In this document: positions 9,681 to 26,363 of the stretch, one piece after another | How the letters are laid out: every line of letters begins with the position of its first letter | Numbering within the stretch: the first letter of the stretch is position 1 | Assembly: GCA_910574935.1 (NCBI GenBank) | Contig: CAJTCU010000019.1 | Coordinates: 1-49,591, forward strand | Source of the DNA: Oscillospiraceae bacterium | Lineage (GTDB): Bacteria; Bacillota; Clostridia; Oscillospirales; Acutalibacteraceae | Direction of reading: 5' to 3' | Length of the DNA: 49,591 bases | The notes under the pieces: generated by a model | The model's input: the letters and a program-made list of their open reading frames with translations, nothing else | What the model was told of the DNA's origin: nothing | The model's database searches: none | Position numbers and translations under genes: made by a program

Positions 9681-11495
9681 TCAGGTGCTTTCCGTATTCT
9701 GCTGGGCCTCCAAAGCCTTCTGCCGCCGTTTCGCCATGTACCGCCTGTTGTACTCGGCTTTCTTTGCCCGCTTCTTCCGAAGCTGCTCCTGTTCCTCCAA
9801 TTCTTCCGCAGTCGGTTCCGGGATAGGCACATCAAATTTGCCGATAAACTTCAGGTAAATGTCAACTTCCTGCGTCCGTTCGCCGGTAGACCTGTCCGCT
9901 TCATGGACAACGATCTTGTCCACAAACTCGTTAATCATCGGCGTGGTCAACTCGGAAAAATCGGTGTACTTCCTGGCAAGGGCCATAAACTGATCGACCT
10001 TTGCCGTATCCGCTTCAAAACTCTCCAAGTCCGCCTGTGCTTTCTGGATGGACGCTTCCAGCGTTTCCTGTTCCTGCTCGTATTCGGCAGACAGCACATC
10101 AAACCGCTTTTCGCTGATTTTGCCAATCGCATAGGATTCGTAAAGTTTCTTGACGATACCACCCAACTCTGCCGCCCGCTTCTGCTCCCGCCGCACACGT
10201 TGTTTCAGCGCCTTAACGGTTTCAGCCTGCCGGACCTCTGACGCGCTGCGAACCTTCTGAATAAACTCGGCCTCGTTCTTGATGGCGTAAGTGCTGGCGG
10301 AACGGATTGCCTCCAAGACCAACTCGCGTACAGCGGCAGTCCGAATGTAATGCTGCGAACAAGCGGTCTGAAAGCGGTCTCTGGCATGGTCATAGGTCGA
10401 GCAATAGTATTCATCTCGGTTTGATCTGCGTTTTCCGTTGGGTCTGCCCTGCCAGTCCCGCGCCCAGCCGCCAGCCCCCCGGTGGTTATACATCTTTGCG
10501 CCGCAGTCAGCGCAGAACATCAAGCCCGTCAGCGGATTAGCCTCTCCCAGCGTATCCGTCCGGCGCACGATCTTCCGCAGCTCCTGCGCCAGCTGCCATG
10601 TTCTTTCGTCTACGATGGCATCATGTGTGTTCTCGAAAATCACCCAATCCTCTTTTGCCGCCTTTTTAGCCCGCTTATCTTTATAGGATTCTTTGTAAGT
10701 GCGGAAGTTGACAGTGTGCCCCATATACTCCGGTTTTGTGAGCATATCAGAAATTGTGGTTCCCCGCCAGGTATAGCGTTCATCCGAATAGTCCCGGCTC
10801 TGGCAAGTCCCTTGGTTTCGCTGTCCCAGGTAGTAGGCGGGCCGTTCTACCTTTTCCGCTGTCAAAATGCGGGCGATCTGGTGAGGGCCGTTTCCCTCAA
10901 TCGTAAGCTGGAAAATCCGGCGCACAACCGCCGCTTCCTCGTCAATCAGCCAGTGTCCAGGGTCGTCCGGGTCCTTGCGGTAGCCGTAAATGACGTTGTT
11001 CGTGGTGTGCTTGCCGCTCATGCCCTTGGCCCGGAGTACGGCGGTCACTTTCCGGCTGCAATCCCGAATATACCATTCGTTTATGACATTCAAAAAGGGG
11101 GCGAACTCCCCGCTGCTTTGTACGCTGCTGTCTATACCGTTGGAGATGGCGATAAACCGGACGCCCTTTTCCCGAAACATAACCTCGGTATAGAAGCCAG
11201 TTTGGAGATAATCACGCCCAATCCGGCTCATATCCTTGGCAATCACACAGCCGACCTTTCCGGCCTCAATGTCCGCAATCAGGCGTTTCCAGTCCGGGCG
11301 GTCGAAGCTGCCGCCCGACCAGCCGTCGTCTGTGTAATGGGCACAGTTACTGAACCCATGCTGGGCAGCATACGTTTCGAGCATCAGTTTTTGATGAACG
11401 ATCGAGTTACTATCGCCCGCCGACATTTCATCGTCACGCGATAACCTCTCATAGAGGGCCGTGATCTTCTCTGTGTCCAACCGCTTTGTGTTCAT
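9681..11495 (-). CDS. Large serine recombinase of TnpX/TndX type (element 1 integrase)
   Basis: 604 residues, full length. The resolvase catalytic domain is at about 10-160, with the nucleophile S19 in Y-E-R-L-S-R-D-D-E and D-M-S-R-I-G-R-D-Y-L near 100. The Recombinase domain follows, then a zinc ribbon (C-A-D-C-G-A-K-M and later C-S-T-Y-D), a long coiled coil and a DUF4368-like end with Y-T-D-F-S-E-L-T-T-P-M-I-N-E-F. Such enzymes excise and integrate Tn4451-like elements through short core sites. AAGGGAG precedes the ATG, which overlaps the stop of the upstream tnpW gene as ATGA. It is the likely enzyme that put element 1 into the recombinase gene of the outer element. Confidence 0.95.
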   Translation of the reverse strand: MNTKRLDTEKITALYERLSRDDEMSAGDSNSIVHQKLMLETYAAQHGFSNCAHYTDDGWSGGSFDRPDWKRLIADIEAGKVGCVIAKDMSRIGRDYLQTGFYTEVMFREKGVRFIAISNGIDSSVQSSGEFAPFLNVINEWYIRDCSRKVTAVLRAKGMSGKHTTNNVIYGYRKDPDDPGHWLIDEEAAVVRRIFQLTIEGNGPHQIARILTAEKVERPAYYLGQRNQGTCQSRDYSDERYTWRGTTISDMLTKPEYMGHTVNFRTYKESYKDKRAKKAAKEDWVIFENTHDAIVDERTWQLAQELRKIVRRTDTLGEANPLTGLMFCADCGAKMYNHRGAGGWARDWQGRPNGKRRSNRDEYYCSTYDHARDRFQTACSQHYIRTAAVRELVLEAIRSASTYAIKNEAEFIQKVRSASEVRQAETVKALKQRVRREQKRAAELGGIVKKLYESYAIGKISEKRFDVLSAEYEQEQETLEASIQKAQADLESFEADTAKVDQFMALARKYTDFSELTTPMINEFVDKIVVHEADRSTGERTQEVDIYLKFIGKFDVPIPEPTAEELEEQEQLRKKRAKKAEYNRRYMAKRRQKALEAQQNTEST

Positions 11496-12407: not shown

Positions 12408-12529
12408 CAGCGGAATTATTGTATTGGGCGAGGCATTACCACCTTTCTGGCTATATTCATTCACCACAAATGACCAGCCGCTATGTTATATTTGGGTAGC
12501 TTTTCTAAACTACCCTTTATAACATACAT

Positions 12530-13712
12530 CCTCATACAGCTTTTTCACAAGCCCGTCAAGCTCTTTGTGCCGCTTCTGTGCCTTATTGATTTTCTGCTTA
12601 CATTCCTTGACGGTCTTTTCTTGGTTCTGGTCGGACGCTTCCCGGACACGCTCTGTAAACTCTTTTTCATTGTGCCGTACATACCAGCTTACCCGCTGGA
12701 TAACGGCAAGGATAGCGGCTTCAATCTTTGCCGTAGGGATATGGTGCATGGTGCAGTCATGGATTAAATGGCGGTAGCCGGAGCAGATAAAAGCGTCCTC
12801 AATCCATTTCCCTTGTACAAGGTTGTAGCGGTGTGTGAGTTTTGAACCGCAGTCGGCACAGTAGAGAAGCCCGGTCAAGCGGTTAGGGACGTTCTGCCGT
12901 TTAGGTGCGCGGCGTACCGTTTCCCGTATCTTCTGTACGGTCTGCCACGTTTCCACGTCCACAATGGCGGGGATTGCGCCCTCAAAAATATATTGTTCCT
13001 CCGGCGCGGTCTTGCGGCTGCTCTTGGTCTTGTAGTTCTCGCATACAGTTTTCCCTAATACCTTGCGCCCTGTGTATTCCGGGCGTTTCAGTATGTAGCC
13101 GATAGTGGTCGCTGACCATGCGTAGGGGTCTGTGTATTTTGCCGCCCGGACTGGCTCGCCTGTCCGTTTCCAATGCTCGGACGGGATAGGGATTTTCTCG
13201 GCGCGGAGTGCCTTTGCTATGCTGGCTATGGTTTCCCCGGTAAGGACACTCTGGAAGATACGACGCACAACGGCGGCGGCTTCCTCGTCAATCACCCACT
13301 CGCATTTTTCCTCTTTGGAAGCGCGGTAGCCATAGCAGACACTCCCGGAACAGCGCAAGCCCTTTTCCATTCTGGACTTGAAAACAGCCTTGATTTTGCG
13401 GCTGGTGTCGGCAACGTACCACTCGTTTATCACGTCACGGAAGATAGACATAATATCAAAGCCGTTGGCGGTGTCAAGGTTGTCATTTGCGGCGATAAAA
13501 CGCACATGGTACTCGTCAAAGGTGCGCTTTAATAGCCCCACTTCAACCACGTCACGCCCGATTCGGCTCTGGTCTTTGATGATAACCGTTGCCACGTTCC
13601 CCGCCCGGATTTCCTCTAACATAGCGTCCAGCCCCGGACGCTTGAACGTAGTTCCCCGGATTCCGTCATCGGTAAAGTGCCGGATATTGGAAAAGCCGTT
13701 TTTTCTTGCATA
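12530..13712 (-). pseudogene. Middle third of the split large serine recombinase
   Basis: The frame runs from Y-A-R-K-N-G-F-S-N-I-R-H-F-T-D-D-G through D-Q-S-R-I-G-R-D-V-V-E-V (catalytic domain), the Recombinase domain, a zinc ribbon (L-L-Y-C-A-D-C-G-S-K-L, later F-I-C-S-G-Y) and coiled coil, to K-K-L-Y-E at the element 1 boundary. A few non-host codons and a stop at 12510 follow. It lacks the catalytic serine, which is on the fragment at 23362-23264. At the other end it abuts, head to head, a plus-strand recombinase fragment at 13713. It is the middle part of the gene that element 1 and element 2 interrupted. Confidence 0.88.
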
Positions 13713-14458
13713 AGCGGCGCTGTGAGGAACTGGACACCATCATCAGGAAGTTGTACGAATCCTACGCGGTGGGGCGCATCGGCGAGGAACGCTTCGACAC
13801 CCTTCTTACCGGGTATGAGCAGGAGCAGACTGCACTCCGACAGTCTGTCACGGAGGCGGAAGCGGCTCTAGACAGCTTCGAGCAAGACACCGCCAATGTG
13901 GAACGCTTCCTTGCCCTGGCAAAGAAGTACACGGATTTCTCGGAGCTGACTACGCCGATGATTAACGAATTTATTGAGAAGATTATCGTCCACGCCCCGG
14001 AAAAGATAGACGGTGACCGGACGCAGGAAGTGGACATCTATCTGAAATTCATCGGACGGTTTGACCTCCCCGCCCCAGAACTGACGCCGGAGGAAGAAAA
14101 GCGGCAGGCTTCTCTGCACCGGCATCGGGTCAAGAGCCGGGAACGCTATCAGAAGATCAAGGCCGGAGAACACGCGGTCGGCCAGCCGTTCAAGCTGATC
14201 TGCAAATGCTGTGGGGAAGAATTTGAATCCACGCGGTCGAACACTCTGTTCTGCGGCCCGAGCTGCCGAGCGAAATTCTACCGGCAGGAGGCGGCGGAAA
14301 GCAGAAAGCGGGAATGTGTCTGCGAGAACTGCGGGAAAGTGTTCACCACAACCAGAAGCGATGTGAAATACTGCTGTGAGGCTTGCCAAAGGAAAGCGCA
14401 CAGCAAAATGCGGTATCGGCAGAAGCGGGCGGAGGACCAGAGCGCAGAAATCGTATAA
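13713..14458 (+). pseudogene. C-terminal fragment of a second serine recombinase with two added zinc-finger motifs
   Basis: Reading begins within the coiled coil (R-R-C-E-E-L-D-T-I-I-R-K-L-Y-E-S-Y-A-V-G-R-I-G) and passes through Y-T-D-F-S-E-L-T-T-P-M-I-N-E-F, the conserved DUF4368-like end. It then continues into two Cys modules, C-K-C-C-G-E-E-F with F-C-G-P-S-C and C-E-N-C-G-K-V-F with Y-C-C-E-A-C. The catalytic and recombinase domains are absent. The ATG at 13706 falls across the junction and is accidental. The fragment is the remnant integrase of element 2, cut by a deletion that also joined it head to head with the host recombinase. The tandem zinc fingers are unusual for the family. Confidence 0.8.
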
Positions 14459-14522
14459 ATATGGTATGGGGCGGGTAGATATTTTTGGCCCGCCCCGTTC
14501 CGTGAAAGGAGGGACAAATCCC

Positions 14523-14897
14523 ATGTGGAACTGTGACTGGGAATATGAAAATCAGGACACGCTGAAACAATGGTATGAAGAAAAACTCGCCGGGATAAGG
14601 CCGTACTCGTCTGTGCGGAAAATCATCTGTAAGGGTTGCGGACGGGATTTCTACACGTTGATCGAAAGCAAGAAATATTGCTATTATGGGCTGTGCGGCA
14701 ACCGGGGATATCAGAAGGATTTGAAGCAGCGGAGATTGGAAAAGCGTCAAAACCGTATCTGCAAGGGCTGTGGAAAAACCTTCACCCCCAAACGGTCGGA
14801 TGCGGTCTACTGCTGTAATGCCTGCCGCCAGCGGGCGTATCGCCAAAGCGTTACGGATAAGGTATGTGGTCAAATTGACCCTTTACCTCAACTGTAA
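14523..14897 (+). CDS. Small zinc-finger protein of element 2
   Basis: 124 residues from M-W-N-C-D-W-E-Y. Two Cys modules are visible: I-C-K-G-C-G-R-D-F with Y-C-Y-Y-G-L-C, and I-C-K-G-C-G-K-T-F with Y-C-C-N-A-C-R-Q-R. The second resembles the modules on the tail of the preceding recombinase fragment (F-T-P-K-R-S-D-A-V-Y-C-C against F-T-T-T-R-S-D-V-K-Y-C-C), so the two probably arose by duplication. GAAAGGAGGG precedes the ATG. It is likely a DNA-binding accessory protein; no specific function is known to me. Confidence 0.7.
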   Translation: MWNCDWEYENQDTLKQWYEEKLAGIRPYSSVRKIICKGCGRDFYTLIESKKYCYYGLCGNRGYQKDLKQRRLEKRQNRICKGCGKTFTPKRSDAVYCCNACRQRAYRQSVTDKVCGQIDPLPQL

Positions 14898-14970
14898 CGC
14901 AAATCAGTGGATTAGCGGTGCGGACAGAATATGACACCACCACTATCTGTAACGGGAATACGGAATATGC

Positions 14971-15011
14971 GCCGGACATGGGTATTCGCCTCCCGTGTCC
15001 GGCCATTTTTT
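14971..15011 (+). terminator. Terminator after the zinc-finger gene
   Basis: GCCGGACA (14971-14978) pairs with TGTCCGGC (14996-15003), with extra GGG/CCC pairing inside, followed by CATTTTTTG. Confidence 0.85.
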
Positions 15012-15086
15012 GAAAATCTGATTTGTGGTACAATGCCGAAAATCAAAAACGGTTGATTTATTTGCGATAGGAGGAAGCAAAAAGCA

Positions 15087-15419
15087 ATGAGTAAACGGAC
15101 CGAGGAATTGAAAATCCGCATCTCGCCGGAGGACAAGGAGCGGATAAAACTCAAAATGGAGGACGCCGGAATTCTGACTATGAGCGCCTATGTCCGCAAG
15201 ATGGCGTTGGACGGAATTTGTATCCGGCTGGACCTGAAGGATGTGCGCCAGCTTACTGTCATGCTCCGGCGATGCTCCGATAATCTGAACCAGTACGCTA
15301 AACGGGCGAACGAAACCGGGAGCATCTATGCGGCGGACATTGAAGATTTACAGAACCGCCTGGACGAGATTTGGGAATTGTCCAGACAGTTGCTTGCGAG
15401 CCTTGCCGCAATCCGGTAG
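15087..15419 (+). CDS. mobC: MobC-like relaxosome accessory protein of element 2
   Basis: 110 residues from M-S-K-R-T-E-E-L-K-I-R-I-S-P-E-D-K-E-R-I. It carries the family motif M-S-A-Y-V-R-K-M-A-L-D-G and then M-L-R-R-C-S-D-N-L-N-Q-Y-A-K-R-A-N. ATAGGAGGAAG precedes the ATG. It is related to the protein at 9158-8823 but clearly diverged, consistent with a separate element of the same broad class. A relaxase gene would be expected next; instead the oriT-like module begins at once and then the end of the defence operon converges from the other strand. The relaxase appears to have been lost or replaced. Confidence 0.85.
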   Translation: MSKRTEELKIRISPEDKERIKLKMEDAGILTMSAYVRKMALDGICIRLDLKDVRQLTVMLRRCSDNLNQYAKRANETGSIYAADIEDLQNRLDEIWELSRQLLASLAAIR

Positions 15420-15534
15420 CGGCAAGAGGTACAGACCAGCCCCGTTTTTCTTTTTCCAGCAAGGCCGTGTCTGCCGCTTCTCCGGCTCTCCAAGGGGCGC
15501 AAGCCCCGCCTGTTCCTGCACCGCAGGGACAACA

Positions 15535-15671
15535 GCGTTCGTGAAACGAACGCGCAGCCAGCCCCGGCTACGGGGCTGATCAAAGGGTTTGGGGTACGGC
15601 CCCAACGAGCAGAAACTGCGATTTCCGGCATCGCCGGGAACCGCAGTTTCGAGCCTTTGTGGGAACAAAGG
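15535..15671 (+). other. OriT-like multi-hairpin module A
   Basis: Four hairpins occur in order: GCGTTCGT-N3-ACGAACGC (15535-15553); CAGCCCCG-N4-CGGGGCTG (15559-15578); AAACTGCG with CGCAGTTT (15613-15649) enclosing CCGGC-N3-GCCGG; and CCTTTGT-N4-ACAAAGG (15654-15671). TCAAAGGGTTTGGG lies between the second and third. The same order, with different but still paired stems, is present on the minus strand at 26215-26363. The position next to mobC suggests a transfer origin; a structured RNA is the alternative. No gene is seen in 15420-15717. Confidence 0.6.
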
Positions 15672-15717
15672 CACTGCTTGCCAAGTAGCAAACCCCCATC
15701 AAACGTGCCAACTCATA

Positions 15718-17178
15718 TCAAAATGGCAAAAGTCGGCCTTGCAATTCAATTATATTTTTGTCAGCGAAGTCATAACTATTGTAAATAGACGCAATTATAA
15801 TTTGGTGTTCAGTATAATCCTCCGCCAGGATAGCCATCATCTCATTCACATTTACCTCACTTACCTCACGCCCACTTGGTGAATCCAGAATAATTGGTAG
15901 GCATACCCCCGTGTGATTTCGAATTAAAGCTACATACGATATTTTGAAAGCAAATACAACCTTATGAAATATTGCCCCAGACAACGACTTGAGGTCGTTT
16001 GTAAAAATATAATCATTTCGCGCACTTACATACTTTTCATCCAAGCCAAGGCGGGTAGCATATCGTGAAATAAGGCTATGCAACTCGGCGACAAGAGGAT
16101 TATTTTGTTTTACGCTTGTAATTACCTGTTCCTCTAAGGTTTTCCGTTCTTTTTCCAGCTTAGCAATGATCCTCTGTGTAGCCAAAGCATCAATGTCCAT
16201 CTTTGAGATTTCACTATCAAATTGCTCTAAGCTACTTTTTACATTAAACAGCATCGAATCCCTGTCTTGCTTGGCTCTTAGCTGATGTATTTTCCGATCA
16301 ATAACCGCAAGTTGCTCACAAATAATCTTCTGCTTTGCAACAAGAAGGAGGGTCGTATCAGCATAGCCAACTAAAGTATCTTTATTGACAGGGATTTCAG
16401 TGCCATCCGGCGTCTTTACCCGAAGCCTAAAAGAAGTAATGTATTTTTCAAAACTATTGTTTTTTCTAACTACGCTCTTTATGCGGCAGAGTTCTTCTTC
16501 AAGCGGTTTTCTCTCGCAGTAAAGCACTTCTAAGGCCGTGTCGATTTCATCAGCCGGAGAATCAGAATAGACCGCCTCTCCCAGTTTATTTATCTCAGCT
16601 TTATATTTGGCAACATCGAGCATATGTCTATATTTCCGAAGTTCTCGTTTGACTGTGGCAAGTCTTTGAGATAATTCATCATTTGATTTTTCGGACAATC
16701 CCCTAAGCAACGACTCAAGTGAAAAACAGATATTGCCAATAGCTTTTCCGCGATTTAACAGAGTCCATCCTTTTTCCTGGTCAACATAAAAAGCGCCAAG
16801 TAAATTTTCAACCACCTCAGAATTTTCAATACCAAAAATCAAGGTGTGTATTTCATTCTGCTCAGTAGGGAGGGAATATCCCTTTTCTGTTCCATCACAA
16901 GTGATTTCGATGTAGTCACGATTTCTGGTTAAGACAAACTCACTTTCAGCCACACCTATAACTGTAAGAATCGTCTCATAGTCGGAAAATCGAATGCCGC
17001 GGGTATTGGATATCGGGTAGCCCAGGGCATACATAAGCATTCTCAGCAGAGTAGTCTTGCCAACGCTGCTTTCTTTGCTGAAAACAATATTTACTCCTGG
17101 GGTGAAGGTAAATATCTTTTGATTATCGCCTAAAAATGTCTGCTGCATGGAATTGACCTGCAATGAAACTATTCTCAT
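15718..17178 (-). CDS. SMC/ABC-like ATPase of the defence operon
   Basis: 486 residues from M-R-I-V-S-L-Q-V-N-S. The Walker A region is F-S-K-E-S-S-V-G-K-T-T-L-L-R at 33-46, with K in place of the first Gly of the usual G-x4-G-K-T. A Walker B/D-loop-like L-P-I-I-L-D-S-P-S-G-R-E-V lies at about 427-439, and a final I-I-I-A-S sits in the H-loop position. Coiled-coil-like helices occupy about 190-360. This is the layout of RecF/SMC-type ATPases in defence systems such as Lamassu LmuB and ABC-3C ATPases. The start overlaps the stop of the upstream nuclease gene as ATGA; upstream ATGs lie inside that gene. It is probably the sensor or motor that licenses the nuclease. Confidence 0.8.
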   Translation of the reverse strand: MRIVSLQVNSMQQTFLGDNQKIFTFTPGVNIVFSKESSVGKTTLLRMLMYALGYPISNTRGIRFSDYETILTVIGVAESEFVLTRNRDYIEITCDGTEKGYSLPTEQNEIHTLIFGIENSEVVENLLGAFYVDQEKGWTLLNRGKAIGNICFSLESLLRGLSEKSNDELSQRLATVKRELRKYRHMLDVAKYKAEINKLGEAVYSDSPADEIDTALEVLYCERKPLEEELCRIKSVVRKNNSFEKYITSFRLRVKTPDGTEIPVNKDTLVGYADTTLLLVAKQKIICEQLAVIDRKIHQLRAKQDRDSMLFNVKSSLEQFDSEISKMDIDALATQRIIAKLEKERKTLEEQVITSVKQNNPLVAELHSLISRYATRLGLDEKYVSARNDYIFTNDLKSLSGAIFHKVVFAFKISYVALIRNHTGVCLPIILDSPSGREVSEVNVNEMMAILAEDYTEHQIIIASIYNSYDFADKNIIELQGRLLPF

Positions 17179-18215
17179 AATTTCACCTTGCCTTTTATCC
17201 CGGCAATTACCCTGCGATTTTTGAGAACGTTTGAAATCGTAATTTGGATTACCATTTCTTCTGTGATAGCGTCTGCACCTTTCAAATCGAAATCGCTTTT
17301 GTACTGTTCCCACCTTTCGGATACAAAACGGCTCATCCGCTCTTTTGATTTCAGAGCAGGGAGGAAATCATTAAAATCACTGAGAACTTTTGAAACAAAT
17401 TCAAATCGTTCGCTGTTGTTATTTATTACTGCCCTATACTTTTGAAGGATTTCCCTAACATCAGAAGGATCATAATCCTCTAATTCGGCATCTGTTTCAC
17501 GGACTTCACACAGAATGGCAATAATAGGCCATATCATACTTTCCTTTGTTATTGTGGAAGTCCTCTGGGATGCATTTACCCTAAAAGAGTTTTGCCGCAA
17601 TGACAACATTTGACCTGTGGATACTTTACTGGCATCAAGGTCATTGAGAAATTCCATAGTCAACGATTGCAGCACCTTATATCGCTCGTCCTCGGATTCA
17701 CCATGAAATTGCATCACACAAACTGTCAACATAGATGTATCAATACTATATCCATTTTTTGAGCAAATATCAGTTATCGACTTCTGGCAGCTTGTTGGTA
17801 ACTCAGAAAATGGAGCCATATTAAGGGGACTGCTAAATTTATGCATCGTCCGTATGTTGTTAAAGGGATTGGGTGAATTCGTCACAAAGACAAGTTGCTC
17901 AACATCGGTTATCTTAGATGCCGCATTCAATGTCCGTAGACTGGCCTCCAAGTTTCTTTTCACATGACTAAAATCATCAGGCTTCTCGACCGATTTCGCT
18001 TGTGCCATCAGAATCTTTCCATTTGAAAATGTAATTTCAACATCCTCTGTTTCGCCTTCAACTTTGACTTTGGAAGCACTTTCAATATTTTTAAGCATCA
18101 GCATAATTGCCGCATTACTCTGAAATTCCCAGCCAAAGGCGGAAGCAGTTGCATTTGATGATTTTGGCATTGGCACATCCATCTCCCTTGTCCCCAACTT
18201 CTCCTCTTGTTTCAC
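17175..18215 (-). CDS. Cap4/DUF4297-like nuclease, probable effector
   Basis: 346 residues. The N-terminal part (about 22-130) reads A-F-G-W-E-F-Q-S-N-A-A-I-M-L-M-L-K-N, then V-E-G-E-T-E-D-V-E-I and I-L-M-A-Q-A-K-S. This is a PD-(D/E)xK pattern with an acidic pair near 53-58 and Q72-x-K74, and V-F-V-T-N-S-P follows. It fits the DUF4297/Cap4 double-strand DNA nuclease fold used as an effector in CBASS and Lamassu systems. The C-terminal 200 residues are helical and unassigned, perhaps contacting the ATPase. It starts 50 bases after the Ymh gene and overlaps the ATPase gene by 4 bases. The family call is from pattern, not from a search. Confidence 0.65.
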   Translation of the reverse strand: MKQEEKLGTREMDVPMPKSSNATASAFGWEFQSNAAIMLMLKNIESASKVKVEGETEDVEITFSNGKILMAQAKSVEKPDDFSHVKRNLEASLRTLNAASKITDVEQLVFVTNSPNPFNNIRTMHKFSSPLNMAPFSELPTSCQKSITDICSKNGYSIDTSMLTVCVMQFHGESEDERYKVLQSLTMEFLNDLDASKVSTGQMLSLRQNSFRVNASQRTSTITKESMIWPIIAILCEVRETDAELEDYDPSDVREILQKYRAVINNNSERFEFVSKVLSDFNDFLPALKSKERMSRFVSERWEQYKSDFDLKGADAITEEMVIQITISNVLKNRRVIAGIKGKVKL

Positions 18216-18265
18216 CAGCTTAGTCGATGCCAGTATCGGCTTTTACATATATACCTTATTTCTTC

Positions 18266-18988
18266 TCAACCGTTACCATTAGACGCCGCAATTATTTCGT
18301 CAATCTTGAACATTAACATACTGGCGAAAATCATTCGCCGCATAGAATCATCTTTCTCAAGCTCAATATTCTCGTGAGATTTGGGATTTCGCAACGCTGC
18401 CATAGCCCCGGCGAACAGGAAACGAGTACCCAAGTGGATGTCTTTTCCTGTTTGAGTAGTCCGATCTCCCGCCTCAAGTACTGGGTCATTATCGGCAAAA
18501 ACCTTGTTCATAAGCGCCTGCCCATCAGGAACATTTTCGGAATCTGGATACGCTGTGCGATACAGTTCCTTAAGGCGAGAATTTATTTCAATGAATGCAT
18601 TGCAGGCGGCTTCGGCGTAACTTCCATCTCTATACAATTTTTCAGAAACTCGCTGAATATTAGGGTGTAGTAAACGGCGCAGCCCCATACTATTTGCTTG
18701 GTTTGTAGCGAGTATTTGTCCTTTAACAAAGTCCACAGCTTCAATTGTCTGCCCGTATACAATCAGATTGATATAAAAGCGCTGATATGGCAGTTCAGTA
18801 AAAAGAGCATTTTTCAAATCGACGAGATGGTTACTGATGAGAGGATTTATCCCTGAAATCTGTTGAGCCACACTTGCAATTCCCTCTCGGACATCAAGGA
18901 CAGTCTTGAAGGGAATAGGTTGGTTAGCATTGTAGCAAGACAGTGACTGCAATTGAATAGATAGCTCGTTCACTTTTGTACTGTTCAT
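18266..18988 (-). CDS. Hypoth_Ymh (TIGR02391-like) protein with HEPN-like R-x4-H motif
   Basis: 240 residues. The C-terminal half has the Hypoth_Ymh signature: L-H-P-N-I-Q-R-V-S-E-K-L-Y-R-D-G-S-Y-A-E-A at about 107-127, L-M-N-K-V-F near 160, and F-L-F-A-G-A-M-A-A-L-R-N-P-K-S-H ending at H205. R200 and H205 form R-x4-H, the spacing used by HEPN RNases. The family is common beside restriction and abortive-infection genes, but its activity is not established to my knowledge. GGAGAAAAA precedes the start. It lies between the HNH nuclease gene (65-base gap) and the Cap4-like nuclease gene (50-base gap). It could be a toxin, a regulator or a structural partner of the ATPase. Confidence 0.75.
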   Translation of the reverse strand: MNSTKVNELSIQLQSLSCYNANQPIPFKTVLDVREGIASVAQQISGINPLISNHLVDLKNALFTELPYQRFYINLIVYGQTIEAVDFVKGQILATNQANSMGLRRLLHPNIQRVSEKLYRDGSYAEAACNAFIEINSRLKELYRTAYPDSENVPDGQALMNKVFADNDPVLEAGDRTTQTGKDIHLGTRFLFAGAMAALRNPKSHENIELEKDDSMRRMIFASMLMFKIDEIIAASNGNG

Positions 18989-19053
18989 TTTTTCTCCATC
19001 GGCTTGATCATCATTTTGGGTATCAGCCAGTTTTTATTTTTTGCGAAGTTCAA

Positions 19054-20265
19054 CTAATAATTGAATTCAATCCCAGTCACTACGGAATTAAAGTCACAGA
19101 AAGGTAGCGCCTCAAAGTAATCCGTCCGAAGTCCAATGTCAAGCACATACATGAAAGCTGCAAAATCGTAGATGACTGCCTCGCCTTTGTTTGCCATAAT
19201 ATTCTTTCGTATACTCTCCGTCTTGGCAATAAGACAGGTATACTGATACTGCTTATCAATGATTTGAGTATTTCCGTTCGGATGCGCTTTCTGCAAATGT
19301 TGTCCGCTGGTCAAAGCGATAAGATTCTCAATGTAATCAGCGATTTCTTCAAACTCATTCTGGGGAAAAATGTGATGCATATGAGTGGCCAGTTCCCCAA
19401 CAGAAAAACGATCTAAAACTTCCGACATACCTTCACGATGGGCATCGTTAAACTTTCGGAGATATTTCATTGCTCTACTAATGCGGTACTGATACATCTG
19501 CTCTGTCTTTGGTTGCGGGTTGAAATCACCACGAGCGACATTCTTGTCCTTACCTACGGCATCATCTCTCCAATTGGTCTGGTTATACATGATTTTGTCG
19601 TAAGTAATCATTGACCGGGAAAGACGTCCTTTTTCCACGCCCTTCTTGTGCAATTTACAGGCAAGAGGATTCAACACCTTGATAAAAATTCGGTTTGCCT
19701 CTATCGCTGTGTTGATTGGTGTGTATTTAATGCAAAAATCAGAAAACATGGTCTTAAGTTCCTGCAAGGATGCTTTTGTTTGCAATTCAAAAAAGGTTTC
19801 GAAGCCATCCCACAAGCCGCTATTCTTAAGCGTCCTTTCAATATAAAGGCAGAGGAACTCAAAAGAATTACGCTCACGGAGAGCAATGTACTCCAATACA
19901 TCCATGTTCTCTACGCTGAACTGAATAGTATTACGTACCACACCATCCTCGCGCAAAACCCCAGCCGCTGCAAGCATCTTCATCGGCTGACGGAAGAATT
20001 TGTTGTACTCATCAAGTGTTGTCCTTATGGTCGGATCAGGTTTACCAAACAGGTGCTGTACATTTTCTATTGCGTATTTGGAATGCCAGATGTCCGGCGA
20101 CTGGAACGGCTGCTTACCTCCGTTCTGAATGTAGTCCACGATGCAGTCTGCCACAAAGCAAACTGCATCCAAGGCGCACTTTTGGTCGATCCAGCGGCCG
20201 TTTCCAGTTTTACGGATGTCATAATCATGCTCATCCAGAAATTTCTGTAAAATATTACTTGTCAT
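19054..20265 (-). CDS. HNH nuclease, probable type IIS restriction endonuclease
   Basis: 403 residues. An HNH core lies at about 295-330: H295, H297 and H298 in H-M-H-H-I-F-P-Q-N, N314 in I-E-N-L-I-A-L, then Q-H-L-Q-K-A-H-P. The first 290 residues are mixed helix and strand, suitable for target recognition. The gene overlaps the end of the fused methyltransferase gene by 11 bases, as expected for a cognate restriction enzyme. Eco31I, the best studied enzyme of the Alw26I/Eco31I/Esp3I group, also uses an HNH active site and is paired with C5 and N6A methyltransferases, which makes type IIS restriction the leading hypothesis. I cannot tell the recognition site from the sequence. Confidence 0.75.
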   Translation of the reverse strand: MTSNILQKFLDEHDYDIRKTGNGRWIDQKCALDAVCFVADCIVDYIQNGGKQPFQSPDIWHSKYAIENVQHLFGKPDPTIRTTLDEYNKFFRQPMKMLAAAGVLREDGVVRNTIQFSVENMDVLEYIALRERNSFEFLCLYIERTLKNSGLWDGFETFFELQTKASLQELKTMFSDFCIKYTPINTAIEANRIFIKVLNPLACKLHKKGVEKGRLSRSMITYDKIMYNQTNWRDDAVGKDKNVARGDFNPQPKTEQMYQYRISRAMKYLRKFNDAHREGMSEVLDRFSVGELATHMHHIFPQNEFEEIADYIENLIALTSGQHLQKAHPNGNTQIIDKQYQYTCLIAKTESIRKNIMANKGEAVIYDFAAFMYVLDIGLRTDYFEALPFCDFNSVVTGIEFNY

Positions 20266-22780
20266 TCTCTTTTAACACCCCGTAAAAAAACACACTCGTC
20301 TTATCTACATTGATTGACTGTGTTGACAGGTTTCTCGCAATGCCGTAGAACCTTCTATATTCCTCTGTGGAGAAATACGCTCTCTGCCTCTTAGTGAGCC
20401 GCAACGGTTTCTTTGGAATTAGAACCGCAACCGATCCATCCGGGATAATTCCAGGAAGATTCTCAATAACCCGTGGATTATAGGTCATGTTCGGTGTAAG
20501 ATAAACGCTGCTATCATCCACATACTGATATGCAGAAAGAGTAACGGCTATTTCTTCTGGTAAATAAACATCATAGCCAGGAATATGGGTAATACCTTGT
20601 CCGTCATCATCAATATTTTTTGCTTTAATTACCCATAGGGAAGGGCCTACTCGCTCCGAACTTGTAATTGACTTCGTAATCTGCCTGTCCCGGAACACGG
20701 AGAACACATTAAAAATTAACTTGTCCGCTACTGCATCGAAATCCTCATCTCGATAAATTATAAAGTATGGAAATCTCTTATCTGTCAAGTAAGACTGCTC
20801 CCGAACAGATTTGCGATTGAACTTCATGCTGTAGACTGATGTTTCTCTTGGCTTCATCTTTGGGTATACGATAAGGCACATGGTTTCAATAGATACTCCT
20901 GTGAAACCGTAACGGCCGAAGTCAATGATGGTCTCAATTCGCATCTGCCGTAAAAGGTTCCTCGTATCCTCAAATTCTTCTGTACTGAGTAGGGTCTTAT
21001 TCAGCACCAATGCAACGCAGTCACTGCAGCGGATACATTTTTCCAGAAACATCTCTGAGAGATTATTTGTAACATGATTTGCATTTGATGCAAGACTTAA
21101 CTCGATTTCTGGCGTTCTTTCTTTCAGTTTGGAGAAGGGAGGATTCCCGACCGCCAGGTCATATCGGTGTATTGTACGGTAAGTGAGAAAATCCTGACAT
21201 ATCCGATTAATTGTAAAGTTCTGCGGTATGTCAAGTTTCTCCAGCATGATGTCAAAGGTTTCGATGCTATCTGGGTCAATATCGACCACATCTAAAATGA
21301 CATGGGGGACATTTTCATATCGCCTAAAGAGGAAAGGAATGAAACTACCCGCACCCACAGACGGTTCCAATATCCGTATCTCATCCTTGCTAAATGTTGG
21401 TAAACTACCCATGATTTCATTCACGATGAATTTGTTGGTGTAAAATGCGGCATTCTTCTCCCTGCGGGCGTTACAAAGTTCTGTAATCCGCATGAGTGAT
21501 GCCACATCTAACTCCATAGGATTATCTCTTAAAAAAGCACGCAGATTTTCCCGGTTGTCCAAGTGATAATCCGCAATGATCCTGTTGATTTCGATAGACT
21601 CACACCTTTTCTGCGCCAACTTGTTGCGAATAGCCGCAGCGAGTTGGCGCATGATTTCAGTTGGAACAGCCTCACCCAAGCATTGGCGAATGTTCATTTC
21701 ATGGCTTTTATAGACATCCAGTTTTTCCTCATTTGAAAGCGCATTCAATTCTTCGAGGCTCATGTCCACCCATCGAAAATCGTCTGGAATTGTCATCATT
21801 GCCATGAGTTCCCGGATACTATAAACTCTGTCCTGCTCGGGGTGAATCGTATTCTGTGCCGCCAATTGGTCGTTGCGGGTATGTACACACTGAATGAAAC
21901 GATCCCAAGGTTGTCTTGTGTATTTATCTCGGTTTTTCCTGATGTTTTCGACAATCTGGCCGTTGACTACTCTGTGTGGCCGCTTTTCAGGAGAATCGTT
22001 GTCAAATGCGGATTCACCCTCTTTTAAGTCGTGAATCCACTCCCGCATCTCAGACTTATATGTGCGGAACGCATGGTAAAAATCGTCAACGTAAATCTCT
22101 CCCCACTCAAGTCTTGGAAAATCATAAATTACTTCCCGTAACGTCTTTTCTGGCCTGAACTCTGGATAAAGATCATATGGAGTGATGTTATTCCGATACG
22201 CCTTATCGACACCAATCATCAGTGTCCTCGTTCGAGAGGAATTTGAGCCATAATTCATAAAGTTCAAAATACGCCCAGAAATAACATAGTCTTTTCCAAG
22301 AACCTCTCTGACATACTCTCCGATTGGAACAGTCCGTCCATCTGGAGTAATGCAAAGTGTCTTTTGGAAAGCCATGACATTCTCAAAAATGAAAAATCTC
22401 GGATTAATCTGACGGATAATCTCAACAGACTCAACTACGAGGCTATTTCTATTTATTTCCTTGTCATTCTTTTTGTGGTTAATGACGCTGATACCCTGGC
22501 AGGGCGGCGTAGCAATAATGACATCTACACGATCATTTCCTTTATGCTTCCATTTACGAATTTCAGAGTAAATTCGTTGTTTAATCACATCTGATGTAAT
22601 ATCACCAACAATATAGCCAGAATCGTACTCGCATTTATGGTTGCAACGTTGTACTTGCATCCGCCGTTCAATGATTTCATTAGTAGCAATACAACGGTAT
22701 CCTTCCATTTGAAAACCGTGACAGCCAACACCAGCCGAACTAAACAGCGTCACATACGTCATACTCTTATCTTTTAACAT
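20255..22780 (-). CDS. Fused C5-cytosine and N6-adenine DNA methyltransferase
   Basis: 841 residues with two complete catalytic domains. Residues 7-390 form a C5-cytosine methyltransferase: F-S-S-A-G-V-G at 13-19, T-P-P-C-Q-G with catalytic C94, F-E-N-V at 132-135, S-R-T-R-T-L-M-I-G near 182-190, and C-L-G-E-A-V-P near 367. Residues 395-841 form an N6-adenine methyltransferase: A-A-F-Y-T at 444-448, E-P-S-V-G-A-G at 472-478, and N-P-P-F at 546-549. Fused or paired C5 plus N6A enzymes protect the two strands of asymmetric sites in type IIS systems of the Alw26I/Eco31I/Esp3I group. GGAGGAACC precedes the ATG. The gene begins 18 bases after the XRE controller and overlaps the HNH nuclease gene. 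Confidence 0.9.
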   Translation of the reverse strand: MLKDKSMTYVTLFSSAGVGCHGFQMEGYRCIATNEIIERRMQVQRCNHKCEYDSGYIVGDITSDVIKQRIYSEIRKWKHKGNDRVDVIIATPPCQGISVINHKKNDKEINRNSLVVESVEIIRQINPRFFIFENVMAFQKTLCITPDGRTVPIGEYVREVLGKDYVISGRILNFMNYGSNSSRTRTLMIGVDKAYRNNITPYDLYPEFRPEKTLREVIYDFPRLEWGEIYVDDFYHAFRTYKSEMREWIHDLKEGESAFDNDSPEKRPHRVVNGQIVENIRKNRDKYTRQPWDRFIQCVHTRNDQLAAQNTIHPEQDRVYSIRELMAMMTIPDDFRWVDMSLEELNALSNEEKLDVYKSHEMNIRQCLGEAVPTEIMRQLAAAIRNKLAQKRCESIEINRIIADYHLDNRENLRAFLRDNPMELDVASLMRITELCNARREKNAAFYTNKFIVNEIMGSLPTFSKDEIRILEPSVGAGSFIPFLFRRYENVPHVILDVVDIDPDSIETFDIMLEKLDIPQNFTINRICQDFLTYRTIHRYDLAVGNPPFSKLKERTPEIELSLASNANHVTNNLSEMFLEKCIRCSDCVALVLNKTLLSTEEFEDTRNLLRQMRIETIIDFGRYGFTGVSIETMCLIVYPKMKPRETSVYSMKFNRKSVREQSYLTDKRFPYFIIYRDEDFDAVADKLIFNVFSVFRDRQITKSITSSERVGPSLWVIKAKNIDDDGQGITHIPGYDVYLPEEIAVTLSAYQYVDDSSVYLTPNMTYNPRVIENLPGIIPDGSVAVLIPKKPLRLTKRQRAYFSTEEYRRFYGIARNLSTQSINVDKTSVFFYGVLKENDK

Positions 22781-22798
22781 GAGGTTCCTCCGTAAATG

Positions 22799-22999
22799 CT
22801 ATTTTTTATATTCTACAATATCTCCGAAATCCGCATCCAGGACCTCACATATTTTTTCAAGTACCATCATAGTTACTTCTTGATCTTTTCTCATCCGGGT
22901 AACCGTGTTCGGCGCGATGTCAGCAGCTCTACGCATTTCGGCAACGCTCATATTCTTATCTATCAACAACTTCCATAATCTGTTATATGAAATCGACAT
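22799..22999 (-). CDS. XRE-family controller of the defence operon
   Basis: 66 residues: M-S-I-S-Y-N-R-L-W-K-L-L-I-D-K-N-M, then a helix-turn-helix (M-S-V-A-E-M-R-R-A-A-D-I-A-P-N-T-V-T-R-M-R-K) and V-L-E-K-I-C-E-V-L-D-A-D-F-G-D-I-V-E-Y. This is the YozG/HTH_26-like size and order. It is the first gene of the operon, 18 bases before the methyltransferase gene, the position of a restriction-modification controller (C) protein. It probably times expression so that methylation precedes restriction after transfer. Confidence 0.85.
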   Translation of the reverse strand: MSISYNRLWKLLIDKNMSVAEMRRAADIAPNTVTRMRKDQEVTMMVLEKICEVLDADFGDIVEYKK

Positions 23000-23070
23000 G
23001 ACCGTCCTCCAACGTTAAAACTGCAACGGGTATTACTCGGTACATTATGAACTATAAATAGCCAATAAAG

Positions 23071-23123
23071 ATTATACCACGATTTTATGCTCATTACAAC
23101 AGTTTTTCGCAATTTGTTGCGAA
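23071..23123 (-). promoter_or_regulatory. Promoter of the defence operon with upstream palindrome
   Basis: On the minus strand TTGTAA (23099-23094) and TATAAT (23076-23071) are 17 bases apart, about 72 bases before the XRE start. TTCGCAA-N4-TTGCGAA at 23106-23123 is a perfect palindrome just upstream of the -35 box and could be an operator. Confidence 0.65.
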
Positions 23124-23263
23124 TTTGCATTCGAGCAAACACAAGAAAGGTCACCCTGCTAATTTTGCATGGCGACCTTATGTTCAGTCCTCAGATGAAA
23201 GACAGGACTATAAAAATTGAAGTCTTGCTTTTTTCGGCGAAAATATCCTTGACAAATGCCGTC

Positions 23264-23362
23264 TTGGTTCTTTATGCTGACGGATTCCCCGGCTCGCTCA
23301 TCGTCATGGGAGAGTCTTTCGTATAGGGCGGTGAGTTTGTATTTCTCTGTCTGCCTCTTCAT
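23264..23362 (-). pseudogene. N-terminal piece of the split large serine recombinase
   Basis: Starts M-K-R-Q-T-E-K-Y-K-L-T-A-L-Y-E-R-L-S-H-D-D-E, with the catalytic serine at residue 18, and keeps recombinase sequence to S-V-S-I-K-N-Q. It then runs into unrelated codons of element 2. The recombinase in element 1 has six residues between the equivalent H-Q and Y-A-A-Q-H-G-F, so about six codons are missing between this piece and the middle fragment at 13712. It is the start of the gene that continues at 13712-12530 and 3747-2691. Confidence 0.88.
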
Positions 23363-23429
23363 GGTGTGTAACCTCCCTTCTTTGAGGGTGCGCGCTTCCC
23401 TATAACCTTATTATACTTATCTGTTTGGC

Positions 23430-24746
23430 ATGGTATTAAACGATGAAATCCATGTCGTGGAGCTTGTGTATGCGGGGCAGGAAATCGAAGTGACGGAAAC
23501 AGGCACGGAGTTTTACAATGAGCGTCAGCGTATGGAAATCGACCTCAACAAAACCCTTGAGGTGGATGAAGCATACGGCGTAGGGAACAACGGCGAAATC
23601 AAGGACGTTACGTTCGGTCTGTATGCCGCCGAGGAGATTACCGCAGCCGACGGCTCTGTTATCCCTGCGGACGGATTGATTGAAGTCATCTTCCTTGATG
23701 AGAACGGTCACGGAAAAGCTATCAGCGATTTACCGATGGGCAGCTACTATGTGCAGGAAATATCAACAAATGCCGCCTACCTTGTCAGCGATGAGAAATA
23801 CCCTGTTGACTTTGAGTACGCAGGGCAGGAAACAGCCGTTGTGAATATCACGGCAAATGAGGGCGAAGCCATTGAAAACGAACTGATTTACGGCTCTGTC
23901 AGCGGCAGGAAATCCAACGAGGACGGCGAAGATTTAGGCGGTGCGTTAATCGGCATCTTTCAGACGGGGACAACGGAATATACAAAGGAAAATGCGATTG
24001 CAACTGCCACATCCGAGGATGACGGCAGTTTTTCTTTTGGGGAAGTTCCGTATGGCACATGGGTAATCCGTGAAATCGAAAGCCCGAAAGGATATGTACT
24101 ATCCGAGGAAGAAATCAGCGTAACAATCAGCGAGGTTGACGAAGTTGTGGAGATTGAGCTTGTAAACTACTTCATCAAAGGCAATATCGCTCTGACTAAG
24201 GTAGACAAGGACTATCCCGACAACAAGCTCACAGGTGCGATATTTGAAATTTACTCTGATACAAACGAAGATGGAAAACTGGACAAGAAAGATGAGCTTC
24301 TCGGCGAGATGGGCGAGGTGGAGAAAGGCGTGTACCAGATGAACGACCTCAGATACGGTAAGTACCTTGTCCGTGAGAAAACAGCCCCGACAGGATTTGT
24401 TCTGGATGAGAACGTCTATCCCGTATCCATCGAGGAAAACGGCAAGACCTACAACGTGGAGAATGAAGCGGGCAAGGGCTTCTTGAATGAAGCGCAGAAA
24501 GGCTCATTAAAAATCTTCAAGACATCCTCTGGCTATATCCTGCCCGCCAACCAGAAAGTGACGGTCAAAGTGGATGAAACGGCAACCGTAACCATGCACA
24601 ACGAGCTGCGTGACACACCGAAAACAGGCGACGACTTTAACCTCGGCTTGTGGGTCAGCCTTGCGGCGGCATTTACAGCCGGTGCGGGAATCTTTGGATT
24701 TGCAGGCTACCAGTGCGGAAGAAAGAAAAAGGAGCATTCCTGTTAA
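23430..24746 (+). pseudogene. 5'-truncated SpaA-repeat surface protein with LPXTG-like anchor
   Basis: 438 residues of repeated SpaA/prealbumin-like beta domains, each ending in patterns such as G-S-Y-Y-V-Q-E-I, G-T-W-V-I-R-E-I-E-S-P-K-G-Y and G-K-Y-L-V-R-E-K-T-A-P-T-G-F. A T-P-K-T-G sortase-like motif, a membrane helix and the basic tail R-K-K-K-E-H follow. There is no signal peptide and no ribosome binding site before 23430, so the 5' part is missing. Within the last repeat K-T-S-S runs straight into G-Y-I-L-P, suggesting an internal domain deletion. Intact relatives are long cell-wall adhesins carried by conjugative elements. Confidence 0.8.
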
Positions 24747-24847
24747 GTAACAAATAGCGGGTTTGCAAAAAATGAGTGTCGCCCATAGAATAATGATTGT
24801 TAACTTGGCGGTTAATAAAAATCATTTTTCAAAGGAGACACCCACAT
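24747..24847 (+). ncRNA. Left-end noncoding region of the IS110-family remnant (possible bridge RNA remnant)
   Basis: About 100 bases lie between the surface-protein stop and the transposase ATG, with AATGATT and AATCATT arms able to form a hairpin. In IS110-group elements the bridge RNA comes from the noncoding DNA at the element end upstream of the gene. The right end is lost here and the left boundary is not defined, so function is unlikely. Confidence 0.3.
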
Positions 24848-25795
24848 ATGAATTGTAAACAAAATGAGAAAATCAATCAAGTAAAAGAATCAACTTTGGT
24901 AGTTGGAATCGATATTGGAAGTACTACACATTATGCCAGAGTTTTTGACTGGCGGGGCATTGAACTTGGGAAGGTTTTTAAATTCAGCAACAGCAGAGAA
25001 GGCTTTGAAAACTTCAAAGACTGGATGCGGTGGTTACAAGACAGGTACAAAAAGTCAGATGTCATTGTAGGAATCGAACCAACCGGCCATTACTGGTTTG
25101 ACCTTGGTGCTTATCTTGAGGATGAAAGCATCCTGCTGGTTATGGTTAACCCTTATGCGGTAAAGCAGACCAAGGAACTGGATGATAACAGCCAAAGTAA
25201 GAATGACAGAAAAGATCCCAAGGTGATAGCAAAGCTTGTCATTGAAGGAAGATATTCAATACCATATACACCAGATGGTGTGTATGCTGATTTAAGAATT
25301 ATGGTGGCCAATCGTAAGAGACTTGTCAGGGAACTTACCCAGATCAAAAACAGATTTGCCAGATGGTTCGCCATATATTTCCCTGAATACAAAGAAGTGT
25401 TTAGGGATTATGAAACACAAAGCAGTATGCTGCTTTTAAAAGCAGCTTGTACTCCGAGAGCAATAGTGGAACTTGGAGCTGAGAAAATCAATCAAATCTG
25501 GCGTGATGCAAAGTTAAGAGCTGTTGGGATAAAAAGGGCAGCGATCCTGTGTGAAACAGCCAAACGAAGCATAGGCTTAAAGAAAGGCTCTTCGGCAGCC
25601 AGGTATGAAATGAAACTTTTGCTTGCGGATTACGAATATAAAATGGCACAGCTTGATTCCATTATGGAAGAGATAGAAAGTTTGTGCAAAAAGATACCCG
25701 AAAGCGAGCAGATGCTTGCCATCAAAGGTATAGGAATGATCACTGTAAGGTTATTCCTTTGTGCAAATCGGCACGATAGAATATATTCGAGGTGA
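24848..25795 (+). pseudogene. IS110-family transposase, 3'-truncated
   Basis: Starts M-N-C-K-Q-N-E-K-I-N with an AAAGGAGAC ribosome binding site. The DEDD catalytic domain is present (V-V-G-I-D-I-G-S-T-T-H-Y, V-G-I-E-P-T-G-H-Y-W, N-D-R-K-D-P-K-V-I-A-K-L). The Transposase_20 domain begins at A-I-K-G-I-G-M-I-T-V and then breaks into unrelated codons R-L-F-L-C-A-N, so the serine-containing C-terminal part is gone. The break is followed directly by an XRE gene. The remnant cannot move by itself. Confidence 0.88.
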
Positions 25796-26214: not shown

Positions 26215-26363
26215 AAGGTTATCCCGTTCCGGGATAACCTTGGCAAGCAAAAACGGACTTCCAGCGTTACCGCCGGAAATCCGTTTTTGCTTGCTGGGAC
26301 AGCGTCCCAAACCCTTTGAACAGCCCCTTGCCGGGACTGGCTGCGCATTCCGTTTCCGAATGC
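26215..26363 (-). other. OriT-like multi-hairpin module B
   Basis: Read on the minus strand: GCATTC with GAATGC (26363-26345), the line GCGCAGCCAG, then CAG-T-CCC with GGGGCTG, then TCAAAGGGTTTGGG (26319-26306), then a 15-base perfect stem (26294-26280 with 26257-26243), then a 12-base perfect stem (26241-26230 with 26226-26215). The order matches module A at 15535-15671. The unpaired line is conserved and the stems differ in sequence but stay paired, which points to selection on structure. The module occupies the gap between the XRE gene and the hydrolase gene. Confidence 0.6.

Follow-up and report, generated by a model that had tools for sequence, protein, structure and literature searches.

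Do six defence-type genes that lie close together on one strand constitute one system or several? The question is raised by a 49,591-nucleotide stretch of DNA from an Oscillospiraceae bacterium (contig CAJTCU010000019.1; the whole stretch is hereafter called the window), in which six genes occupy positions 22999-15718, all on the minus strand in the open reading frame (ORF) list. In the order in which they are read, they encode an XRE-type controller, a fused methyltransferase, an HNH endonuclease, a protein of the Ymh family, a nuclease and an SMC/Rad50-like ATPase. A preliminary description, made from the sequence alone, had placed the six genes correctly and proposed that they make up one new system, in which restriction is backed by an abortive module. 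We found that the cluster is not a new system but a new composite of known modules. In our reading, to which we give a probability of about 85%, it is the cargo of a mobile element that carries three separate defence modules stacked in one direction: a restriction-modification (R-M) unit, Ymh and a nuclease-ATPase pair. This reading is based on relatives that carry the parts separately and on DNA similarity that stops at the module borders.

Distribution and borders of the six genes

With the ATPase alignment as query, 82 loci were collected, 74 from genome contigs and 8 from viral contigs; relatives were sought via short conserved patterns, and these loci are a sample. The nuclease gene lies beside the ATPase gene in 77 of them. 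The five loci without a nuclease or a full ATPase start at contig edges (L060, L083), have a split ATPase (L084) or are distant (L090, L091). Upstream sequence is present for at least 2 kb in 65 of the 77 pairs and for at least 5 kb in 54. The HNH gene together with the full fused methyltransferase was found in a single ATPase locus (L018), and a Ymh gene in two (L018 and L101, where it is divergent and downstream of the pair); with L018 set aside, the region upstream of the nuclease is free of Ymh genes in all 76 pairs, and 8 other loci gave only weak generic C5-methyltransferase matches (21-27% identity). The ATPase itself was detected in 4 of 291 genomes, counting the own genome, and in 8 plasmid records.

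Surveys that started from the other genes gave the same picture. Searches with the HNH protein identified relatives in 6 of 291 genomes of the class, 1 of 398 genomes of the phylum (the own genome being counted in both) and 3 of 72,556 plasmid records. A relative of the N6-adenine or fused methyltransferase is present in seven of the eight HNH neighbourhoods (L007, L008, L013-L017, L123), and the nuclease, ATPase and Ymh genes in none of the eight, within the stretches fetched. A family-level search located Ymh-domain genes in 17 of 398 genomes and a protein-level search in 2 of 291 (again with the own genome in both), and none of the 17 other Ymh neighbourhoods (L124-L140) carries the HNH, methyltransferase, nuclease or ATPase gene. 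Scans of viral contigs with Ymh, HNH and methyltransferase retrieved 3, 3 and 2 pattern-matched stretches respectively, none of which was confirmed.

The borders between the modules are visible directly at the DNA level. In L013, which carries the R-M genes alone (85-91% protein identity), the match to the window covers 19051-23012, i.e., the XRE, methyltransferase and HNH genes, and ends at the HNH stop codon; the 285 bases that remain on that contig beyond it contain no Ymh gene. In the closest relatives of the pair, L019, L020 and L021, which have the nuclease and ATPase genes without the rest (69-81% protein identity), the match starts at 15717-15728 and ends at the nuclease start, at 18186, 18179 and 18164 respectively. 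The Ymh gene sits between these two blocks of similarity. The only other locus with the complete set, L018 in Anaerotruncus sp. G3, is 97% identical to the window over 9.6 kb (13714-23275), and its flanks do not continue the match except for related recombinase sequence and short repeats; L018 is therefore a recent copy of one segment and not independent evidence. This copy with unmatched flanks, together with a NikA/MobC-type gene inside the shared segment, supports the earlier view that the stretch is mobile.

Identity of the three modules

The window proteins were scanned with Pfam, PADLOC and NCBIfam models. The PADLOC models were decisive; the Pfam match of the HNH protein is weak (0.069), and those of the nuclease (Cap4_nuclease, 9.8e-5) and the ATPase (AAA_23, 7.6e-5) lie below the Pfam curated cut-offs. 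By sequence, the XRE, fused methyltransferase and HNH genes form a Type II R-M unit, as had been supposed: the methyltransferase is covered over residues 1-837 by PADLOC MTase_II (2.2e-261) and the endonuclease over residues 1-403 by REase_II (4.2e-130), and relatives of these genes occur without the others. The methyltransferase contains a C5 domain (DNA_methylase, 9.3e-32) followed by an N6-adenine domain (Eco57I, 2.8e-9), with the motifs PPCQG at 92, ENV at 133, EPSVGAGSF at 472 and NPPF at 546; all 9 aligned HNH proteins, the window protein among them, retain HHIFP...N...H. The methyltransferase and endonuclease genes adjoin each other, with their motifs intact, and are also neighbours in relatives, as in Type II systems with an HNH nuclease and two methyltransferases; the difference is that the two methyltransferases are fused in the window, as in L013 and L008, whereas L015, L016 and L123 encode the two halves in ORFs of their own. 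The fused enzyme would set a C5 mark and an N6-adenine mark on host sites, the HNH nuclease would cut unmarked DNA and the XRE protein would time expression of the unit. As two different methylations are predicted, an asymmetric recognition site is suggested, and the unit presumably resembles MnlI/HphI-type enzymes in both respects. Upstream of the R-M relative in L013 (1064-5494) lie a second C5-methyltransferase ORF, a 764-amino-acid ORF resembling a GHKL/histidine-kinase-type ATPase by eye and a receiver-like ORF; together these may be a further defence module.

Ymh (PF09509/TIGR02391) matched Hypoth_Ymh in Pfam (1.1e-22) and, in PADLOC, PD-Lambda-3_B (6.8e-7) and, weakly, Aga_HEPN (0.001). 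The R-x4-H sequence RNPKSH at residue 200, which falls within the R-x4-6-H pattern of HEPN-domain proteins, is covered by the weak Aga_HEPN match and recurs in 14 of the 15 proteins aligned, L127, L134, L135 and L136 having been left unaligned. Unlike described HEPN-domain proteins, window Ymh has no solved relative by PDB sequence search, and its N-terminal half is without a family match. A literature search on the Ymh family names retrieved unrelated papers only, and one on TIGR02391 none. Because of the R-x4-H motif, Ymh is probably a small HEPN-type protein acting as a stand-alone ribonuclease effector, which is the least secure step of the proposed mechanism. Two other Ymh loci are of interest in themselves. 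In L140 (2-1419), a 37%-identical Ymh gene lies directly behind a gene that resembles a helix-turn-helix regulator by eye, and the 4.6-kb contig holds no R-M or Lamassu genes; the two may constitute a two-gene unit. In L101 (4801-5646), the divergent Ymh-domain gene (PF09509, 4.5e-40) lies 152 bases downstream of the nuclease-ATPase pair.

The preliminary description had grouped the last three genes as an ATPase-nuclease module. By profile and predicted fold, the last two are a two-component pair of the Lamassu family without LmuC, closest to LmuA/LmuB and above all to the LmuAB complex of PDB 9ux7; Ymh is not part of it. PADLOC assigned the nuclease to PDC-M46A (2.1e-117) and the ATPase to PDC-M46B (1.3e-174) as well as to LmuB (2.9e-18). 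The ATPase profile matched LmuB of 9ux7 (1.5e-15), and predicted structures, each protein being modelled singly, matched the fold of 9ux7 along most of the length of each; when the ATPase, nuclease, Ymh and HNH sequences were compared one by one with the PDB, nothing relevant was retrieved, and the nuclease alignment gave a chance match only. As in Lamassu LmuAB, the gene for an LmuA-type Cap4 effector nuclease overlaps that for an LmuB-type Rad50-like ATPase, here by 4 bases; an overlap was estimated in 73 of 76 pairs and in 3 of 3 more in whole genomes, and the two-gene pair is complete in three of four small plasmids viewed, the nuclease of the fourth being annotated in two pieces. The P-loop is conserved, and D-S occupies the Walker B position both in the ATPase family and in 9ux7 LmuB, with D-S-P in 68 of 68 aligned rows. 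The pair differs from Lamassu in having no LmuC gene between nuclease and ATPase, in the absence of a Zn-hook CxxC from 67 of the 68 rows (CxxC occurs anywhere in only one) and in the size of the ATPase, 486 amino acids against ~650 for LmuB. A Zn-hook CxxC in the coiled coil is a feature of many, not all, Lamassu systems. Passages of PMC10586767 give ~650 amino acids as the usual length of LmuB, describe a Walker B Glu to Gln change in general, report that some Lamassu systems lack LmuC and place ABC-3C in the Lamassu superfamily; the missing LmuC is thus not disqualifying. PMC11811056 reports one locus that PADLOC assigns to PDC-M46 and DefenseFinder to Lamassu.

From these features we infer the activities, the trigger and the self-killing outcome. 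The Rad50-like ATPase would clamp aberrant DNA (ends or hairpins), the Ser replacing the catalytic Glu would block ATP hydrolysis and keep the engaged state, and the Cap4-type nuclease would then be released, cut DNA and end the infection.

Layout of the cluster and its surroundings

The coordinates of the features are given in Table 1. From the XRE gene to the ATPase gene, the successive spacings are 18, -11, 65, 50 and -4 bases. For the ATPase, the 531-amino-acid ORF (from 17313) opens too early, as its homologues have their first residue at the ATG at 17178. For the nuclease, the probable start is the ATG at 18182 and not the ORF opening, because the L019 protein begins at that residue and L019 DNA similarity at 18186. 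The gap between Ymh and the nuclease is then 83 bases, and the earlier figure of at most 65 applies only if the first GTG is taken as the start. A single promoter upstream of the XRE gene, as had been claimed, is plausible for the predicted co-transcription of the cluster; however, promoter-like sites are about as frequent in 15500-23400 as expected by chance (19 against 17.3 +/- 4.9 in shuffles). Each module would act by itself, and expression may be shared.

Table 1. Features of the cluster and of the mobile segment in the window
Feature	Position	Strand	Evidence or remark
XRE/Cro-type controller, 66 aa	22799-22999	-	HTH_26 1.7e-19; inside DNA block common to L013 with methyltransferase and HNH
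Fused C5-cytosine and N6-adenine DNA methyltransferase, 841 aa	20255-22780	-	PADLOC MTase_II, motifs
HNH-type Type II restriction endonuclease, 403 aa	19054-20265	-	PADLOC REase_II, HHIFP..N..H motif
Ymh (PF09509) HEPN-like protein, 240 aa	18266-18988	-	Hypoth_Ymh 1.1e-22, R-x4-H at residue 200
LmuA/Cap4-like PD-(D/E)xK nuclease (PDC-M46A)	17175-18182	-	ORF opens at 18215 (first GTG)
LmuB-like SMC/Rad50-type ATPase (PDC-M46B), 486 aa	15718-17178	-	
Promoter-like TTGTAA-17-TATAAT, TG ahead of -10	23071-23099	-	~70 bases upstream of XRE gene
Recently moved unit, 97% identity to L018 of Anaerotruncus sp. G3	13714-23275		blastn
NikA/MobC-type mobilisation gene, within shared segment	15087-15419	+	NikA-like 3.2e-15, MobC 1.6e-6

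Serine-recombinase pieces at 12510-14458 and 23159-23362 flank the shared segment, whose ends lie inside them. Relative to the intact recombinase at 9681-11495, one minus-strand piece corresponds to residues 72-453, a short minus-strand piece to residues 10-42 and a plus-strand DUF4368 piece to residues 438-581. A 45-base inverted repeat (80% complementary; 15572-15616 and 26283-26327) surrounds the cluster, its arms being ~10.7 kb apart, and related short repeats also match L018. Further along the window, a SpaA/prealbumin-like surface-protein gene (23430-24746, 3.9e-42) lies beside an IS110-type transposase gene (24797-25795, 1.3e-31).

Alternative readings and significance

We asked whether the modules are nevertheless tied to each other. 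The looser of the possible ties is that PDC-M46-type, LmuC-less pairs are a portable second line that is repeatedly appended to modification-based systems (Type I, Type II, IIG, BREX) as their last two genes, and that the window would be one case of this. The pair would be set off by DNA ends left by restriction or by phage that escape it, and LmuB is thought to sense DNA ends, according to a passage of PMC12904381. Taking as a tight upstream gene a same-strand ORF of at least 150 amino acids ending no more than 100 bases upstream, we found one in 28 of the 76 pairs that remain when L018 is set aside, and 14 of the 28 genes belong to R-M or BREX systems: IIG (L020, L068, L073), Type I (L033, L055), BrxL (L098, L099) or Type II (L025, L042, L053, L057, L077, L100, L105), L100 and L105 being typed by their cluster with L025 and by the DpnII tally. 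In this tally 23 of the 28 genes were scanned singly, and L026, L028, L029, L100 and L105 were assigned by pooled tallies, sequence cluster or near-duplicate. Downstream of the pair, R-M or BREX genes account for 3 of 17 scanned genes (L022, L070, L086; 19 were eligible, L032 and L035 being left out). The difference gives a Fisher p of 0.056, or 0.057 when L105, a duplicate of L100, is omitted. However, the 14 loci are drawn from 76 pairs overall, R-M genes are common in defence islands, and none lies directly upstream of the pair in the four plasmid copies viewed, although L011 has one ~1 kb away. The order of restriction followed by a Lamassu-type pair thus recurs with different partners, but its excess over expectation is a lead only. 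We regard the second-line reading as doubtful, and the earlier idea of restriction backed by an abortive module survives as this lead rather than as an established system. On the viral contig of L099 (857-11461), an LmuA/LmuB-like pair directly follows a BREX-like operon in which BrxL was identified by PADLOC, and a large methyltransferase and a PglZ-like gene by eye; L098 has the same BrxL-pair junction.

A stricter tie is one integrated six-gene system, in which restriction comes first and its failure licenses the Ymh-nuclease-ATPase part. The common strand, the tight spacing, the two overlaps and the presence of the complete set in two genomes speak for it; against it, the HNH gene accompanies the ATPase only in the 97% copy, and both the R-M genes and the pair stand alone in their respective close relatives. 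On gene distribution and DNA borders we reject this reading as very improbable. The claimed novelty of the gene set falls with it, as profile searches match the named models REase_II, MTase_II, PDC-M46 and LmuB; because of the 1 in 82 co-occurrence and of these matches, the genes are neighbours.

Still less probable is that Ymh stands in for LmuC as a missing third component of the pair: it directly precedes the nuclease in the window and L018, and L101 has a divergent Ymh gene behind the ATPase, but with Ymh in 2 of 77 pairs, absent from the other 75 (L019-L021 included), and with 17 of 17 other Ymh loci, among them L140, lacking the pair, this reading was rejected. Clustering of neighbours over 81 loci revealed no recurrent third gene, the largest cluster covering 12 loci and the largest clusters resembling, by eye from sequence, site-specific recombinases, helicases and phage integrases, so a hidden third gene was rejected too. 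The preliminary comparison with Lamassu or ABC-3C stands for Lamassu; ABC-3C also combines an effector with an ABC/SMC-like ATPase, but was rejected as the identity of the pair since its two genes overlap and a gene for a middle component is lacking.

The proposed new six-gene system thus gives way to three parts of known kinds whose borders are visible. Whether Lamassu-type pairs are found preferentially behind restriction or BREX operons is a lead that can be counted. For the family, PDC-M46, an unpublished PADLOC candidate, is now tied to Lamassu by profile and fold, as a compact form that lacks both the hook and LmuC and in which an invariant D-S-P replaces the usual Walker B glutamate.
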